Assembly: GCA_011390365.1 (NCBI GenBank)
Contig: JAABSM010000005.1
Span: 1 to 64,000, forward strand
DNA length: 64,000 nt
DNA from: Gammaproteobacteria bacterium
Lineage (GTDB): Bacteria; Pseudomonadota; Gammaproteobacteria; Chromatiales; Chromatiaceae
Reading direction: 5' to 3'
In this document: positions 54,181-61,827 of the stretch, in pieces
Layout of the letters: every line of letters begins with the position of its first letter
How positions within the stretch are numbered: the stretch's first letter is position 1
Translations under genes and position numbers: made by a program
The notes under the pieces: generated by a model
What the model saw: only the letters and a program-made list of their open reading frames with translations
Told to the model about the DNA's origin: nothing
The model's database searches: none

Positions 54181-56592
54181 ATGCCGCAAGCCGTACATTC
54201 GCTGTCACCATTCGATATCCAGAGGCTGCAAACTTCCAATCGTCTGCGCGAAGGGGCGATGGCGATCCTGTTCGCGGCGGGGGGATATCTGTTGCTCGCG
54301 CTGCTGACCTACTCCAGCAACGACCCGGGCTGGTCGTTCACCGGCGAGCGCGGACGTATCGAGAACCTGGGCGGCGCGGCCGGCGCCTGGTTCGCCGACG
54401 TCGCCTACAACCTGTTCGGCGCCTTCGCCATCCTCTTTCCCTTCATCGTCGCCATCAGCGGCTGGGTCGTCTTCAAGGAGGGCAGAGAGGACAACAAGGT
54501 CCACTTTGGCGCGGTCGCACTACGCTGGGGGGGCTTTCTGGTCACCCTCTTCGCCGGCAGTTCGCTGCTGGCGATGAACCTGCCGGTCAACCAGTTCGCC
54601 CTCCCCTCCGGCCCCGGCGGCATCTTCGGCGACGTCCTCGGCAGCCATCTGGCGGAACTCTTCGGCGCCACCGGCGGCTCGTTGCTGGTGATGGCACTGT
54701 TCATCGCCGGCACCACCCTCTTCACCGGCATCTCCTGGCTCTCCGTCATCGACTACACCGGCGCCCTCACCCTGGAGGGACTGCGTCGCCTGAGAGAGCT
54801 GGACTACCTCGCCACCCTGGAAGACCTGAAGCGCCGTTTTCAGCGTCCGGCCCATGCGCCTCGCCCCCGCCACCGTTTTACCCCGGCCCCGCCGGCGGCG
54901 CAACCGCAAACCAAGACGCCGCCGCCGAGCGCCCCGAAAACGGGAAAAAACGAAACCAAGCCCGCCCCGGGCAATGCCAAGACCGGCGAAGTCGGCAAGA
55001 AGCCGCGCATCGAACCCATGCTGGAGCGCCTCAAGCCCAGCAAGCGCGCCCAGTCGGAGCGCCAGCTCTCGCTGTTCGATCCCGACCCGACCCTGGAGCG
55101 GGCGTTGCCGCCGCTGGGCCTGCTCAACGAGGCGCGCAAGTCCGGCAAGGGCTTCTCGGAGGCGGCGCTGGAGGCGATGTCCCGCCAGGTCGAGATGAAG
55201 CTCAAGGACTTTCGCATCGAAGCGGAAGTGGTGGCTGTCCATCCCGGTCCGGTAGTGACCCTGTTCGAGCTGCAACTCGCCCCCGGCATCAAGGCCTCCC
55301 GGGTCACCTCCCTGTCCAAGGATCTGGCCCGCGCCCTCGCCACCATCAGCGTGCGCGTGGTCGAGGTGATCCCCGGCAAGTCGGTCATCGGCCTGGAGAT
55401 CCCCAACGAACAGCGGGAGACGGTCTACCTCAGCGAGATCCTCCGCTCCGAGGCCTACGACAAGGCCAAGTCGCCCCTCACCCTGGCGCTGGGCAAGAAC
55501 ATCACCGGTCGCCCGAATGTCGCCGATCTGGCCAAGATGCCCCACGCCCTGATCGCCGGCACCACCGGCTCGGGTAAATCGGTGGCGATCAACGCCATGA
55601 TCCTGTCGATCCTCTACAAGGCCCCGCCAGAAGAGGTGCGCATGATCATGGTCGACCCCAAGATGCTGGAGCTGTCGGTCTACGAGGGCATCCCCCACCT
55701 GCTCACCCCGGTGGTCACCGACATGAAGGAGGCAGCCAACGCGCTGCGCTGGTGCGTCGCCGAGATGGATCGCCGCTACCAGTTGATGGCCAAACTGGGG
55801 GTGCGTAACATCACCGGTTATAACAAGAAGATCCGCGAGGCGGAGAAGGCCGGCACCCCCTACGCCGACCCCTTCTTCCGCCCCGACATGCTCTCCACCG
55901 AAGAGCAGATACCGCCGCCGCTGGAGGCCATGCCCTACATCGTGGTGGTGATCGACGAGCTGGCCGACATGATGATGGTGGTCGGCAAGAAGGTGGAAGA
56001 GCTGATCGCCCGCCTCGCCCAGAAGGCCCGCGCCGCCGGCATCCACCTGCTGCTGGCCACCCAGCGCCCGTCGGTGGACGTGATCACCGGCCTGATCAAG
56101 GCCAACATCCCGTCACGCATCGCCTTCCAGGTCTCGTCGCGCATCGACTCCCGCACCATCCTCGACCAGATGGGCGCGGAGCACCTGCTCGGCCACGGCG
56201 ACATGCTCTACCTGCCCCCTGGCACCAGCATCCCGCAACGCCTCCACGGCGCGTTTGTCGACGACAACGAGGTCCACCAGGTGGTCGCCCACCTCAAGCA
56301 GATGGGCGAGCCGGATTACATCGACGACATCCTCCAGGGCGGCGGTGATGACGCCTTCAGCCCCAGCGACGCCGGCGGCGATGTGGAAGATACCGACCCC
56401 CTCTTCGACGAGGCGGTGCAGATCGTCACCGAGACCCGCAAGGCCTCCATCTCCGGCGTCCAGCGCCGTCTCAAGATCGGCTACAACCGCGCCGCGCGCA
56501 TGATCGAAGAGATGGAACGCATCGGCGTGGTCAGCGCCGCCGAGACCAACGGCAACCGCCAGGTACTCGCGCCGCCGCCGGTGGAGGCTTGA
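54181..56592 (+). CDS. ftsK: DNA translocase FtsK
   Basis: FtsK pumps chromosome termini through the closing septum and activates dimer resolution at dif. The 803-residue protein has four N-terminal membrane spans (about 25-185), a short proline/lysine linker (about 220-270, much shorter than in E. coli), the motor with Walker [15 protein letters not shown] and Walker [16 protein letters not shown], and the C-terminal winged-helix gamma domain ([23 protein letters not shown]) that reads KOPS. The next gene starts inside its stop codon. Confidence 0.97.
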
Positions 56593-57062
56593 TGCAGTTC
56601 AAGATCAGCCACGCGGAGTTCGCCAAACGCAATCGCAACCTGGTCTGGGGGGCGATATTCAGCATCCTGCTGGCGGGGGTGACGATAGCCGCCAACCGGC
56701 TCTACCCCGCCTCCTTCAATGACCTCTTTCTCTGGTCGGTGATACTCTTCGTGGTACTGGCCAATTTGATCAATTTCGTCCGCCACCTGCGCTACCTGAA
56801 GCAGGCGCGCATCCACCGCCTGGAGGTCGCGGACGGTCGGCTGCGCTTTTTCACCGGCGATGAGATGGGTGAACTCGACCCGGAACGGATCGCCGGCCTT
56901 TCAGTCTATCGCCGCAAGGGCGAGATCAACCACTTGCAGATTCGGCTGAAGAACAACCGCGGAATCCGCCTGGAGGGCTACGAGGCGATGGATGAACTGA
57001 AGAGCGCACTGGCCGACATGCTGCCATCCGCGCATGTGGACGATGCCGGGGCCAACCGCTAA
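56592..57062 (+). CDS. Unknown two-span membrane protein
   Basis: The 156-residue product starts at the ATG overlapping the ftsK TGA (TGATG), so it is translationally coupled. It has two hydrophobic segments at about 20-37 and 46-62 and then a small soluble domain (RLEVADGRLRFFTGDEMGELDPERIAGLSVYRRKGEINHLQIRLKNNRGIRLEGYEAMDEL) that looks like a PH- or YcxB-type fold. I do not recognise a named family. It may be native or part of the inserted segment between ftsK and lolA. Confidence 0.65.
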   Translation: MQFKISHAEFAKRNRNLVWGAIFSILLAGVTIAANRLYPASFNDLFLWSVILFVVLANLINFVRHLRYLKQARIHRLEVADGRLRFFTGDEMGELDPERIAGLSVYRRKGEINHLQIRLKNNRGIRLEGYEAMDELKSALADMLPSAHVDDAGANR

Positions 57063-57082
57063 ACGTCATCATTCAGGTGTTA

Positions 57083-57796
57083 TTAGATTCGTGTTGAAAG
57101 CCACAGATGCCAAACCTCAATAGGGCCTGGGGCCAAGCGCGACATTGGCTCAAGGTAGGCAAAATCGCGCCGATGGGCGGTGTGCGCGAGGTCGCAGGAG
57201 ACGCCGGACAAGGGCGCGGGCAGGGTCTCGGTGGCGTATTTCTCCCTGGGGCCAGGTTTCGCCAGATGCGGATGCAGGCAGCCGGCGATATTGCAACCAT
57301 CGCGCACATAGCCAAGCATGAAGGCCTCACGCGACATCCAGGCATATTCGCCGCGAACAAACCTCACCAGACCCTGGCTGCAATATAGCCCCACCGTCTT
57401 GTTGCGCGCGGCATCGATCAGCTTGCATTCGACGACCAGTGGAAAGTTGAAGCACCGATTAGTGAGGTGAATCGAAAGGTCCGGGCGCTTTTCCAGGCGG
57501 CTGCCGTCGAAGTTTACACTCTCCCGCCCCCGGCTCGCACCGCTGACAATGGTTTCCCACAAAGGATCTTCGTCGCGCAGCGTGTTAAGCCGCCCCTCCA
57601 GCAAGGCGCTGACTTCCGCCTCGTCGCCACTGCACACCACCTCTTGGCGCCGGTCAATCAGTTCCCGCCATACCTGCGTCAAAGTCTCCGCGACTAAACG
57701 CAGGATAGATTCCGGTATTGGCGGCAACGGGAGCGAGATGCCGCGGGTCAGCTCGGCGACTTGTTCCGGACGAGGGTGAATCCGCGTTTTCGTCAT
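57083..57796 (-). CDS. PD-(D/E)xK nuclease-like partner of the methylase
   Basis: The 237-residue protein contains RPDLSIHLTNRCFNFPLVVECKLIDAARNKTVGLYCSQGLVRFV, with aspartate and ExK in the spacing of a PD-(D/E)xK nuclease and a following helix with the expected glutamine (SQG). Its ATG overlaps the methylase stop (ATGA at 57793-57796), so the two are coupled. It is most likely the restriction component of a two-gene system. It has no helicase and no DNA-recognition domain that I can see. Function is inferred from motif and context. Confidence 0.65.
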   Translation of the reverse strand: MTKTRIHPRPEQVAELTRGISLPLPPIPESILRLVAETLTQVWRELIDRRQEVVCSGDEAEVSALLEGRLNTLRDEDPLWETIVSGASRGRESVNFDGSRLEKRPDLSIHLTNRCFNFPLVVECKLIDAARNKTVGLYCSQGLVRFVRGEYAWMSREAFMLGYVRDGCNIAGCLHPHLAKPGPREKYATETLPAPLSGVSCDLAHTAHRRDFAYLEPMSRLAPGPIEVWHLWLSTRI

Positions 57797-60792
57797 GCGG
57801 CCTCTGTGCCGAACAATTTATCGACATGCTCCCAGATGATGCGGCGGGCAAGCAGGCGCGCGGCGCTCTTGCTCCAGTAGCGCGCCTGATCGAGACGGGC
57901 AATCCACAGGGTGTTGTTATCCGGCGCCGGGAACAACACCTCGCTACTGGCCAGACGGTCCGCCACGCGCAGCACCTCGGGCCAGTCATCGCATGATGCC
58001 GACATTTTTTCATTTCCGGTCTCGATGCGCAGCAGCCGCCAAGGGGTCTCGCCTTTCAGCGTGGGTAACGACACCTTTAACGGCTTGCCGTGACGCTTGG
58101 CCCAGGGGGCGAGTTCGGCTTCGAGGGCGATGCGGAAGCCCTCGCGGTTATCGGCATCCGTGGGGGCCTGGGCGGCCCGCCGGTTGGCGGCATATGGGAG
58201 CTCGAAACGCAAGGTGTCGTCGATGACCTCAAGGTCCCGTGGGCGTAGACCATAGAGACCGGCGACCCAGGCATCTACTGCCGCCCAGGCGGCCTCGTCG
58301 CCGCGCTGGGCGACGGCATCGAATAGCGGAATGATCCGGTCGCGGGCTGCGGCGGGCAGCTTTTCAAAATCGGGCACCGCGATCGAATCGATAATGAATT
58401 TCTCGACGACCTCGCGCTCGAAGCCGAATTTGCCGCTTGTCACAAGGGCGTGCCAGAATGCCGGCCTGCTACCGATCACCAGCGCCAAATAGCGCACCAG
58501 CCTCATGCCATCATAGTGCTCGCAGGCGCTATAACCGTAATAGGTTTCGTTGAAGACAACATTACTATCCGCGACGCTTGCGTGGATTCGCCCCGAATCA
58601 GCCAAAGGCGATTGGTGGACAATCAACAGAGGGCCTCGGAAAATCTCTCTGGGCCTACCTCGATGAACGCGCTCGTTGGTAAATTCATCTAACTGTTTCG
58701 TATCAATCCACCTATCCTTGGCAATCTCGCCGTTGAGTTCAGGCAAGCCGTGCAGGTATTCCGCAGGGACGCCTGGCAAACCATCGCCACTTTTTCTTAT
58801 TCGGCTACTGGCACGGAGCCTTTGATAACCATTACCCGCGAAATTCAAGGCGCGCCCCCGTCTACCAAAGCGCCGCGCCCAGTAACCTGACAAGGTATCG
58901 ATTGCACGCCCTGCCATACGGTCGAACACCTCAAGGCTCAGCGGGCCGCCGCGAAACAGGATCTTGAGGATCTCTGGCCGCTGCGTGACCTGCCCGACCG
59001 CAACGGTTTCCGCGTTGCCCGCGTCCAACCGAAGAATCCCACTATTGTTGAGGCCATCTTCAAGACGAGGGCTGACGAACAAAAATCCTGCCCCTGGCGG
59101 GGGGGGTTGATTACGGGCATAGAGAAGACAAAAAGGGGCGGCAATCTCTGGCCAGACCCTGGTTTTACGCAGGTCCGCACCGTTCACTACGCCGGTCACG
59201 TCCAGCGCATTGAACAGTGCCGCGCGCGCCTCCTCCATCCCCTCGCCATGCTGAAACAGCAACCGTCCGTGCAGAACGAAGGCAATCTGCCCGCCCGAAC
59301 GCGCCCACTCCATGGCCCGCCAAACGAAGGGCAGATCCATCACTTGATTGGGCAGCAATGGGCGCGGGCCATTCTCGGGCAACCGCTGGGCCGCGATGGA
59401 CTGCACCCGCGCCACGACCCGCGGCCAGTCCGACAGCCTGGTCGAGCTCGACCAAGGGGGGTTGCCAACAATCAAGTCGTACCTACCCCTGTGCTCCTCC
59501 CCTACATCAGGGCCAAGGCTCCCCAGCCCCTGCTCATCCCCCACCTTGAACAGAACACGATCACGCAACTCATCGAAACGAAGCCTCTGCAGCGGCTCGG
59601 GTTTAGGATCGAGTTCGATCGATAGCAGATACAAGCCGAGCGCGGCGAAGCGCAGACCGGATTCGTTGATGTCGAAACCGGCGATCTGGTTGCGGAGGAT
59701 GGTTCGGAGTGTCCGGGTATCCGGCCGCTTTTCGTCATGTCGCCAACGCGCCGCCACCAAATGTCGAAAGGCCGTGAGGAGAAACACGCCCGCCCCCGCG
59801 GCGGGATCCAGGACACGGGCCTCGTGTGCGCGCCCTTCGCGACGCAGGGCGTGAAAGGCGCCCCGTACCAAAAGGTCGGCAATCGGTCGCGGCGTGTAGT
59901 AGCCGCCTTCTCGCTGCTGCTTGTCCGGTGTGTGGCGACGCTGGTAGTGTTCATAGGCTTGACTGAGGACGCCCACCGGGATGTGGGCAAAATCCAGGTG
60001 CGCCCAGTCTTCTTCCCACTCGAGATAACGCTGGCCGCCCGGGGTGCGGCGCATGATGTCGCCAAGCACCTTGAAGGCCCGTTCCGGCAGCGAGGCAAAC
60101 AGGCCTTTTGAGTAGGGCAACAGGTCGCCGTTGAAGGTGTCGTCCAGCCAGGCGCAGGTGTTTTCCGCTTTTGCCGGGTCATCGAACAGATGATCCGCAC
60201 TCTGACCGGCAAGCAGGTCCTCTGGAAGCAGGTCGCGATCCGCCAGGAAGCGGGTGAACAGGGCGCGTCCGACCAAGGAGATTGCGTCGGGGTCGGAAAG
60301 ATCGGCCTCATGAATGAGCACTTCGATCGCCTCGCCGAGAAGCTTGAGTACCACATCGGCAATCCAGCGCCCCTTGGCGGCCAGACCCGGGCGATGGTTG
60401 GCGAGATGGGAAAAGGTGGCCTGCCGCGCTACGGACGAGGCAAGGGTCAGGCGGCTTTGGGCGGGTGTCGCCGCGTCCAGCGCGATGCGGTGCAGGGTCA
60501 GTTGACCGGGGCGAACAACACCGAGATAAGGCGCATCGCCGCGCAAGGCGAGTCGGCGGCGAATGGCTTGCAGGTGCTGATCATTCGCCAGGCTCGCACC
60601 ATCGACCAGAAATACCAGCGGAGCATCCTGCCATTCATACACCCCCATCAGAGGCGTAAGCTCGGATTGCTCGGTTTGGCGAGAACCGACCAAGGTTGCA
60701 TAGGGCAGCAATCCAGGCTCGTCATCCTCGAATCTGGACAGGCTATCCAGGTCGGCACCATATTCAATGAGGGTTTGGTCGAAAGGGTTCAT
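57793..60792 (-). CDS. Eco57I-type N6-adenine DNA methyltransferase
   Basis: The 999-residue protein has an N-terminal domain of about 280 residues, then an adenine methylase core with GGYYTPRPIADLLV (motif X), RVLDPAAGAGVFLLTAF (SAM-binding motif I), FDINESGLRFAALGLYLL, and DLIVGNPPWSSSTRL (catalytic NPPW). The C-terminal part has the usual target-recognition blocks (NFAGNGYQRLRAS, VVFNETYYGYSA, YLALVIGSRPAFWHALVTSGKFGFEREVVEKFIID). The frame is open to 60861 but 60792 gives the natural start MNPFDQTL. There is no C-terminal or N-terminal nuclease I can recognise, so cleavage would depend on the next gene. Confidence 0.85.
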   Translation of the reverse strand: MNPFDQTLIEYGADLDSLSRFEDDEPGLLPYATLVGSRQTEQSELTPLMGVYEWQDAPLVFLVDGASLANDQHLQAIRRRLALRGDAPYLGVVRPGQLTLHRIALDAATPAQSRLTLASSVARQATFSHLANHRPGLAAKGRWIADVVLKLLGEAIEVLIHEADLSDPDAISLVGRALFTRFLADRDLLPEDLLAGQSADHLFDDPAKAENTCAWLDDTFNGDLLPYSKGLFASLPERAFKVLGDIMRRTPGGQRYLEWEEDWAHLDFAHIPVGVLSQAYEHYQRRHTPDKQQREGGYYTPRPIADLLVRGAFHALRREGRAHEARVLDPAAGAGVFLLTAFRHLVAARWRHDEKRPDTRTLRTILRNQIAGFDINESGLRFAALGLYLLSIELDPKPEPLQRLRFDELRDRVLFKVGDEQGLGSLGPDVGEEHRGRYDLIVGNPPWSSSTRLSDWPRVVARVQSIAAQRLPENGPRPLLPNQVMDLPFVWRAMEWARSGGQIAFVLHGRLLFQHGEGMEEARAALFNALDVTGVVNGADLRKTRVWPEIAAPFCLLYARNQPPPPGAGFLFVSPRLEDGLNNSGILRLDAGNAETVAVGQVTQRPEILKILFRGGPLSLEVFDRMAGRAIDTLSGYWARRFGRRGRALNFAGNGYQRLRASSRIRKSGDGLPGVPAEYLHGLPELNGEIAKDRWIDTKQLDEFTNERVHRGRPREIFRGPLLIVHQSPLADSGRIHASVADSNVVFNETYYGYSACEHYDGMRLVRYLALVIGSRPAFWHALVTSGKFGFEREVVEKFIIDSIAVPDFEKLPAAARDRIIPLFDAVAQRGDEAAWAAVDAWVAGLYGLRPRDLEVIDDTLRFELPYAANRRAAQAPTDADNREGFRIALEAELAPWAKRHGKPLKVSLPTLKGETPWRLLRIETGNEKMSASCDDWPEVLRVADRLASSEVLFPAPDNNTLWIARLDQARYWSKSAARLLARRIIWEHVDKLFGTEAA

Positions 60793-60935
60793 AAGGTGTT
60801 TTGTGACACATGCGCCTAATCGCGTCAAGCCCCTTATCCACATTAAAGCCAATAGTGGCAAATCATGGGCATGACCTCAAATTCTCATATGGACACTCTC
60901 GCCCTTCCCTGCCTCATTCCAGCTGCCTCGCTTCC

Positions 60936-61060
60936 GCTTCAAAAGTTAATGAAAATGCGCCAAACCCGATATCCAACATGCAACACCGCCTCAAGATCGG
61001 CTACAATCGCCCCACCCATGCCCTGATGGAGCGCACCCGCGGCATCCGCGCCCCATCGCT
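60936..61060 (+). pseudogene. Decayed copy of the ftsK 3' end
   Basis: In the frame containing 60978, the translation [24 protein letters not shown] parallels the FtsK gamma domain [26 protein letters not shown] (11 of 14 matches over the ISxxQ...GYNR block). At the base level CTCAAGATCGGCTACAA is identical. After this the similarity fades. It lies just before lolA, where the end of ftsK would be if ftsK and lolA were adjacent as in E. coli. Confidence 0.6.
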
Positions 61061-61188
61061 CGACCAGAAAAACCCGGGAGCGCACTACCTTGCAGTTCAC
61101 CCTTCGCCCCTTCGGGCAAACCCCAGCAACAACAAGCTCACCCCCATCTGGCGGCGAGTTCGCGAGTCCACGAGGGTCTCGACAAGCC

Positions 61189-61827
61189 ATGCCCCAGCCG
61201 CGGCGCTGGTTGCCGCTTTTGCTGCTGCTCTGCGCTTGGCTATTCACGCCCCTGGCCCTTGCCCAGCAAACCAGCGGCATTGAACAACTGCGGACCTTCC
61301 TCGATGACCTTCGCACCCTGCGCGCCGATTTCCAGCAGGTGACCTATGTCCAGAATGACGATGCGGGACAGACCGCGGCGGGGGTCTTCTACCTGGAACG
61401 GCCGGATCACTTCCGCTGGAACTACACCCACCCGGGGCAGCAGGAGATCGTCGCTGACGGGCTTTCGGTGTGGTACTACGAACCGGATCTGGAGCAGGTG
61501 AGCGTGCAGTTTCAGGCGCTGGCGCTGAAGGGCACGCCGGCGCGACTGCTGACCAGCGAGGCCCCCATCGACGAATACTTCGAACTGGAAGAAGGCGGCG
61601 AGCGGGAGGGGCTGGCGTGGGTGGAGCTGCATTCCAAGGAGGAGGAGCCCCGTTTTCAGAAGATCGAACTGGGTTTGGAAGAGAACCTTCTCGCGGCAAT
61701 GCGGCTGGTGGACAACTTCGGCCAGACCATCTGGTTTCTGTTCGAGAACCTGGCGAAGAATCCCGACCTGGACGGCGGGCTGTTCCGTTTCGATCCTCCG
61801 CCGGGGTACGACATCCTGGAACGATAA
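61189..61827 (+). CDS. lolA: Outer-membrane lipoprotein carrier LolA
   Basis: LolA ferries lipoproteins through the periplasm from LolCDE to LolB. The 212-residue precursor has a signal peptide (WLPLLLLLCAWLFTPLALAQQ), then LRADFQQVTYVQNDDAGQTAAGVFYLERPDHFRWNYTHPGQQEIVADGLSVWYYEPDLEQVSV, the typical LolA core. ATG 61189 is placed directly before the signal peptide; upstream frame sequence is the ftsK remnant. Confidence 0.95.
   Translation: MPQPRRWLPLLLLLCAWLFTPLALAQQTSGIEQLRTFLDDLRTLRADFQQVTYVQNDDAGQTAAGVFYLERPDHFRWNYTHPGQQEIVADGLSVWYYEPDLEQVSVQFQALALKGTPARLLTSEAPIDEYFELEEGGEREGLAWVELHSKEEEPRFQKIELGLEENLLAAMRLVDNFGQTIWFLFENLAKNPDLDGGLFRFDPPPGYDILER

Follow-up and report, generated by a model that had tools for sequence, protein, structure and literature searches.

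The window, a stretch of 64,000 nucleotides from contig JAABSM010000005.1 of a gammaproteobacterium of the family Chromatiaceae, contains a segment of about 4.5 kb between the division gene ftsK and lolA. The segment is enclosed by two copies of a short core from the coding region of the FtsK gamma domain, one inside an intact ftsK and one in a relic just before lolA, and it carries a DNA methylase, a nuclease candidate and a small membrane protein. Our preferred explanation, to which we assign a probability of roughly 0.62, is that the segment arrived at the 3' end of ftsK and left the gene whole, and that the lolA-side copy is the displaced original end, now disused and decayed. The window would then offer a readable case of how a defence gene pair can settle next to an essential division gene and leave it intact.

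A degenerate FtsK gamma region before lolA

A first reading of this DNA without database searches (the sequence-only reading) had reported a degenerate copy of the gamma-domain region before lolA, and alignment bears this out. The best ungapped block is identical at 25 of 28 nt (60986-61013 versus 56466-56493), and its score of 41 was reached in none of 2000 dinucleotide shuffles (maximum 35), for which the 398 nt around the block were used. The gapped alignment of 60958-61066 with 56437-56548 scored 73, compared with a mean of 37.5 (standard deviation 6.2, maximum 68) in 1000 shuffles. A search of 4.26 Mb (169 contigs) of the genome from which the window derives with a 23-nt core pattern, allowing up to three mismatches, returned three matches: ftsK and the relic without mismatch, and one other site with three, so that no further exact core is present in the 4.26 Mb searched. 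Within the core the two copies differ only at two third codon positions, and over a 45-nt ungapped stretch 6 of the 10 differences are changes of G to A or of C to T in the direction from ftsK to the relic, the kind of change that decay in GC-rich DNA would produce, although the number is small. In the reading frame of the relic, FtsK_gamma was the sole Pfam match and a weak one (E 0.0094; 16.1 bits with a cut-off of 30.6; residues 53-69). The 28-nt block forms an imperfect direct repeat with 4,520-bp spacing that flanks the segment, one copy lying inside the intact ftsK.

The position of the relic was compared with the usual arrangement of the two genes, which were searched in 56 relatives and in 211 genomes of the family. 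Spacing was measured between the core in ftsK and one constant reference position in lolA. The sample comprised 105 of 147 core-bearing genomes, those for which no lolA was listed or which had more than one core being left out; 95 were measurable, and 10 had ftsK and lolA on different contigs or strands. In 92 of the 95 the spacing was 149-443 nt. The three outliers measured 845, 2100 and 2142 nt; the first of these (G218) has a long LolA reading frame and may be free of an insert despite its spacing. The two genes are thus usually uninterrupted neighbours, and the broken adjacency noticed in the window is real. In the sole congener compared (G001, 89% complete), a single core was found with no insert between ftsK and lolA, at a spacing of 270 nt; the corresponding values in the window are 253 nt for the relic and 4773 nt for the working ftsK core. 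Seen from lolA, the relic therefore occupies the expected place of an ftsK end, and in the correct orientation. A stronger argument than the spacing is that the only other exact core of the genome lies at the ftsK-lolA junction.

Origin of the segment

That the segment inserted at the ftsK 3' end and displaced the original end is the part of the sequence-only reading that best explains adjacency, position and orientation of the relic. The incoming DNA would have supplied or recreated a working gamma end. One route would be recombination within the conserved 3' end of ftsK, joined illegitimately at the far side; another would be integration at the core. ftsK would have remained whole, while the older end was stranded beside lolA and then began to decay. 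Recombination in the conserved 3' end is the simplest account. Of the predictions of site-specific integration, a repeated core and two unlike ends, one working and the opposite one decayed, were seen; an integrase among the three main open reading frames (ORFs) and recurrence in the 211 family genomes were not. Displacement by insertion ranks first and tandem duplication second.

Several observations weigh against a displaced native end. None of the three main ORFs enclosed by the cores was recognised as an integrase or a transposase, smaller overlapping ORFs not having been searched. The similarity fades outside the block: further upstream (60880-60968) it is at chance level, with a score of 10 that 99.95% of 2000 shuffles reached, and downstream (61014-61110) it is marginal, with a score of 21 reached by 3.2% of 2000. 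The outcome that the sequence-only reading had named as refuting it, similarity at chance level beyond the block, thus holds on the upstream side, with the downstream side being marginal. The agreement in spacing has only moderate specificity: most positions in the approximately 400-nt non-coding stretch before lolA would lie within 149-443 nt. When the relic was aligned with 56 gamma copies, which include some genomes counted twice, the own ftsK scored 73 and tied for fourth place, behind a best score of 82 (G034), and G001 scored 57. The divergence of the own ftsK from G001 showed no break near the 3' end. The expectation that the relic would be closer to the ftsK of island-free relatives was not supported either: of 15 sites that distinguish the own ftsK from G001, the relic has the state of the own gene at 9, that of G001 at 5 and neither at 1. 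As far as these alignments can tell, relatedness does not appear to separate a displaced native end from a local duplicate.

The same comparisons bear on a tandem duplication, in which the ftsK end and its spacer would first have been doubled, the cargo would later have recombined in between and the lolA-side copy would have decayed, with no foreign end involved. The 9 of 15 informative sites shared with the own ftsK (versus 5 for G001), the unbroken divergence along ftsK and the three main ORFs without an integrase would all fit such a history, but some of the gamma copies match the relic better than the own ftsK does; we regard a duplication as possible but rather unlikely. The relic is matched by several further gamma copies no less well than by the own ftsK, which would also suit a scrap of some other gene with a gamma domain, such as an RdgC-gamma gene of a phage or a DnaJ-gamma gene, brought along with the cargo. 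Gamma fusions of this kind do exist, with RdgC on a viral contig and with DnaJ in G063, and gamma matches occur under RdgC or recombination-associated features in phage and plasmid records. The relic frame, however, contains no RdgC, DnaJ or other partner beside FtsK_gamma, and such a scrap would hardly have come to lie at exactly this junction by chance, which makes this origin improbable. Coincidence as the source of the 14-residue match, to which the weak similarity outside the block might point, is very improbable given that none of the 2000 shuffles attained the block score and that a degenerate form of the core pattern, read backwards as a control, had no match in 211 genomes.

Gene content of the interval

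All parts that had been described between ftsK and lolA (a membrane protein, a nuclease-like gene and a methylase) were recovered among the ORFs of both strands of 54181-61827 and by Pfam searches (Table 1). The start codon of the membrane gene and the ftsK stop have one base in common, and the methylase stop overlaps the start of the nuclease candidate by four bases. About 400 nt between the methylase and lolA are without convincing genes; a 157-codon ORF at 60810-61283, which contains the relic and overlaps lolA, is probably no real gene.

Table 1. Features of the ftsK-lolA interval, in positions of the window
Feature	Position	Strand	Basis
ftsK, complete, 803 aa	54181..56592	+	Pfam FtsK_4TM, alpha, FtsK_SpoIIIE, gamma
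ftsK gamma domain (PF09397, E 7.4e-27)	56386-56571	+	Pfam profile search
Proximal core copy, codes RLKIGYNR	56467..56489	+	Pattern match
Small membrane protein, 156 aa, two hydrophobic segments	56592..57062	+	ORF reading
Nuclease candidate, 237 aa	57083..57796	-	Alignments: E59, P105-D106, E123-x-K125 conserved
N6-adenine DNA methyltransferase, 999 aa	57793..60792	-	Pfam N6_Mtase/Eco57I, PADLOC type IIG/II methylases, motifs
Relic: degenerate partial copy of FtsK gamma-domain coding region	60958..61066	+	Alignment and shuffles, PF09397
Distal core copy, 4,520 bp from proximal copy	60987..61009	+	Pattern match
lolA	61189..61827	+	Pfam LolA E 7.8e-39

The methylase belongs to the N6_Mtase/Eco57I family (Pfam E 9.6e-18) and contains the motifs DPAAGAG (329) and NPPW (444), that is, the catalytic motifs expected of the methyltransferase of a type II restriction-modification (R-M) system. 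Its best PADLOC matches were type IIG and II models, the top match covering 147-450 of 1016 profile positions, and it stayed far under the cut-offs of BREX and MADS models (36.8 bits versus 720 for MAD2; 33.2 versus 900 for BREX-6 PglX). The domain, the NPPW motif and a size near 1000 aa are shared with type II R-M systems that have Eco57I-like methylases (type IIG/II). Type IIG enzymes combine cutting and methylation in one protein, whereas here the nuclease candidate is encoded by a separate gene that no family model in the libraries used names.

The nuclease candidate matched no Pfam, NCBIfam or PADLOC model and no phage record. Against PHROGs it had a single weak match of unknown function (E 0.036), and against the sequences of solved structures only non-significant ones (E 0.31 and 0.26). 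It carries a PD...ExK motif, and an alignment of 81 sequences revealed the conserved residues expected of a PD-(D/E)xK nuclease: E59 (98%), P105 (100%), D106 (99%), E123 (100%) and K125 (100%). Y138, G142, R145, F146, G149, Y151, W153, H208, R210, H230 and W232 are conserved as well.

We scanned a collection of species genomes with a five-sequence alignment of the nuclease and kept the best 80 of 99 relatives (loci L194-L273); 43 of these loci were shorter than 14 kb, and their flanks are therefore cut. A methylase match on the same strand was located upstream of the nuclease in all 80, its end no more than 458 nt away from the nuclease match, and the estimated gap between the genes was at most 150 nt in 79. 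The exception is L231, in which a partial methylase match ends 421 nt before the nuclease match. Judged by their titles, the 80 loci come from genomes of several phyla. None contained a match to ftsK, lolA or the membrane gene, and queries with two plasmid integrases, which other integrase types would escape, gave matches in 3 of the 80. Among plasmid records, the nuclease candidate was found in 5 and the methylase in 22. Four plasmid regions were read, and both genes were together in all four, with an integrase near in two. On Agrobacterium and Allorhizobium plasmids the pair has 45-55% identity and a site-specific integrase nearby in both cases; in a Burkholderia plasmid region the methylase match spans two annotated genes. 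Within the order, 6 of 120 genomes have the nuclease, own included, and in the five others it is on the ftsK contig at a distance of at least 333 kb. Methylase and nuclease are thus a two-gene module that occurs elsewhere in unrelated places, plasmids included. Repeats around the pair were uninformative as a mark of the target site, the longest shared words being 8 nt (direct) and 9 nt (inverted).

The module is probably a working R-M pair and is put forward as a candidate. The methylase would mark a target sequence at adenines, and DNA lacking the mark would be cut by the PD-(D/E)xK-like partner. The nuclease represents a family without a name in the four libraries used, with a methylase just upstream in each of the 80 loci, and as a clear and testable R-M candidate it may be the more useful outcome of this analysis.

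The membrane protein had no significant match to a Pfam family. Homologues are present in 15 of 211 family genomes, own included, and in the eight relative regions listed they are among other genes, the neighbours being judged by eye. A role as part of the restriction module was considered and rejected, since the gene was not found in the 80 restriction loci and has other neighbours in relatives. Because it stands apart from the restriction pair elsewhere, the island looks composite, and the membrane gene is probably unrelated cargo that came to overlap the ftsK stop.

The ftsK 3' end in related genomes

The sequence-only reading had further proposed the ftsK gamma domain as an insertion site for defence genes, and this generalisation was not supported. 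A degenerate core pattern matched in 147 of the 211 family genomes, the 64 without any match not being tested by it, and it matched twice in six: own, G028, G063, G104, G129 and G159. We judged the five other cases to be different from a relic before lolA. In G104, ftsK end and lolA start form a near-identical repeat around a single N (L106 2600-3300), probably an assembly artefact. In G129 there are two contigs that each carry a complete gamma domain with lolA behind it, and in G159 contig C318 ends within the match; both were taken as contig ends or mixed strains, which is not proven. The second core of G028 lies in an RdgC-like gene with gamma, resembling those of loci L134 and L135, and that of G063 in a DnaJ-gamma gene. 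The PF09397 profile, which is blind to relics this short and found one match only in the own genome, had further matches in G111, G175 and G180. Recurrent use of the core as a site was thus not found among related genomes, and relatives of the restriction pair were beside ftsK in none of the 80 loci and in none of the five relatives.

Variable cargo in the ftsK-lolA interval, for which the sequence-only reading had proposed to look, does exist, but none of it is a defence gene by its matches. In G224 the interval holds an HD/GAF/hemerythrin gene (L172 1068-2792) and in G225 a gene similar to it in start and length (L173); G227 has an aldo-keto reductase after ftsK, and G063 the DnaJ-gamma gene together with a DDE transposase. 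The interval thus accepts inserts at times but bears no mark of a defence site. The segment in the window looks like a single insertion event rather than the use of a general docking site for defence genes.

A bolder idea is that the DNA of the gamma recognition helix serves as an attachment site, so that mobile units would bring their own gamma 3' end, recombinases would act in trans and ftsK would be rebuilt. One of the most conserved chromosomal codon blocks would then be a docking point. With a 49-aa gamma query, matches spanned at least 80% of its length in 324 of 369 phage records and in 245 of 246 plasmid records; these copies are thus mostly more than a scrap of attachment-site size. 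We consider the idea a long shot.

Passages of PMC4701971 describe ftsK as the target of site-specific integration by streptococcal integrative and conjugative elements, with site-specific tyrosine integrases, direct repeats of 12-54 bp and use of the 5' end of the gene. The segment likewise lies at ftsK, but on the 3' side and without a recognised integrase. Other islands occupy the final part of conserved genes, for example guaA and tRNA genes, and leave them whole (compare passages of PMC4701971). They are similar in having a working gene end on one side, a degenerate end on the other and cargo between; they differ in that the repeat here is imperfect (25/28), lies inside a coding region, comes without a recognised integrase and is a single case. 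A passage of PMC3287507 concerns indels that disable the end of the sequenced ftsK portion, not integration, and the ftsK passages of PMC3218068 concern FtsK-type transfer proteins. Our searches of the open-access literature brought up neither an account of elements integrating at the 3' end of ftsK nor a paper in which 'FtsK gamma domain' and 'RdgC' both occur.

Complete gamma domains were also encountered in fusion with other proteins. RdgC is fused to a complete FtsK gamma in L134 (5080-6198, by Pfam) and, by sequence likeness, in L135 (5077-6231) and L070 (8689-9843), and among the matches listed, Vibrio phages and several plasmids had gamma matches under RdgC or recombination-associated annotations. 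Such a fusion may, we speculate, aim RdgC at FtsK's chromosome signals. In G063, the DnaJ-domain protein with its in-frame FtsK gamma (L107 7052-7987) is encoded in AT-rich DNA between ftsK and lolA, in the orientation opposite to ftsK and adjoining the DDE transposase, and its gamma piece appears more GC-rich than the gene of which it is part.
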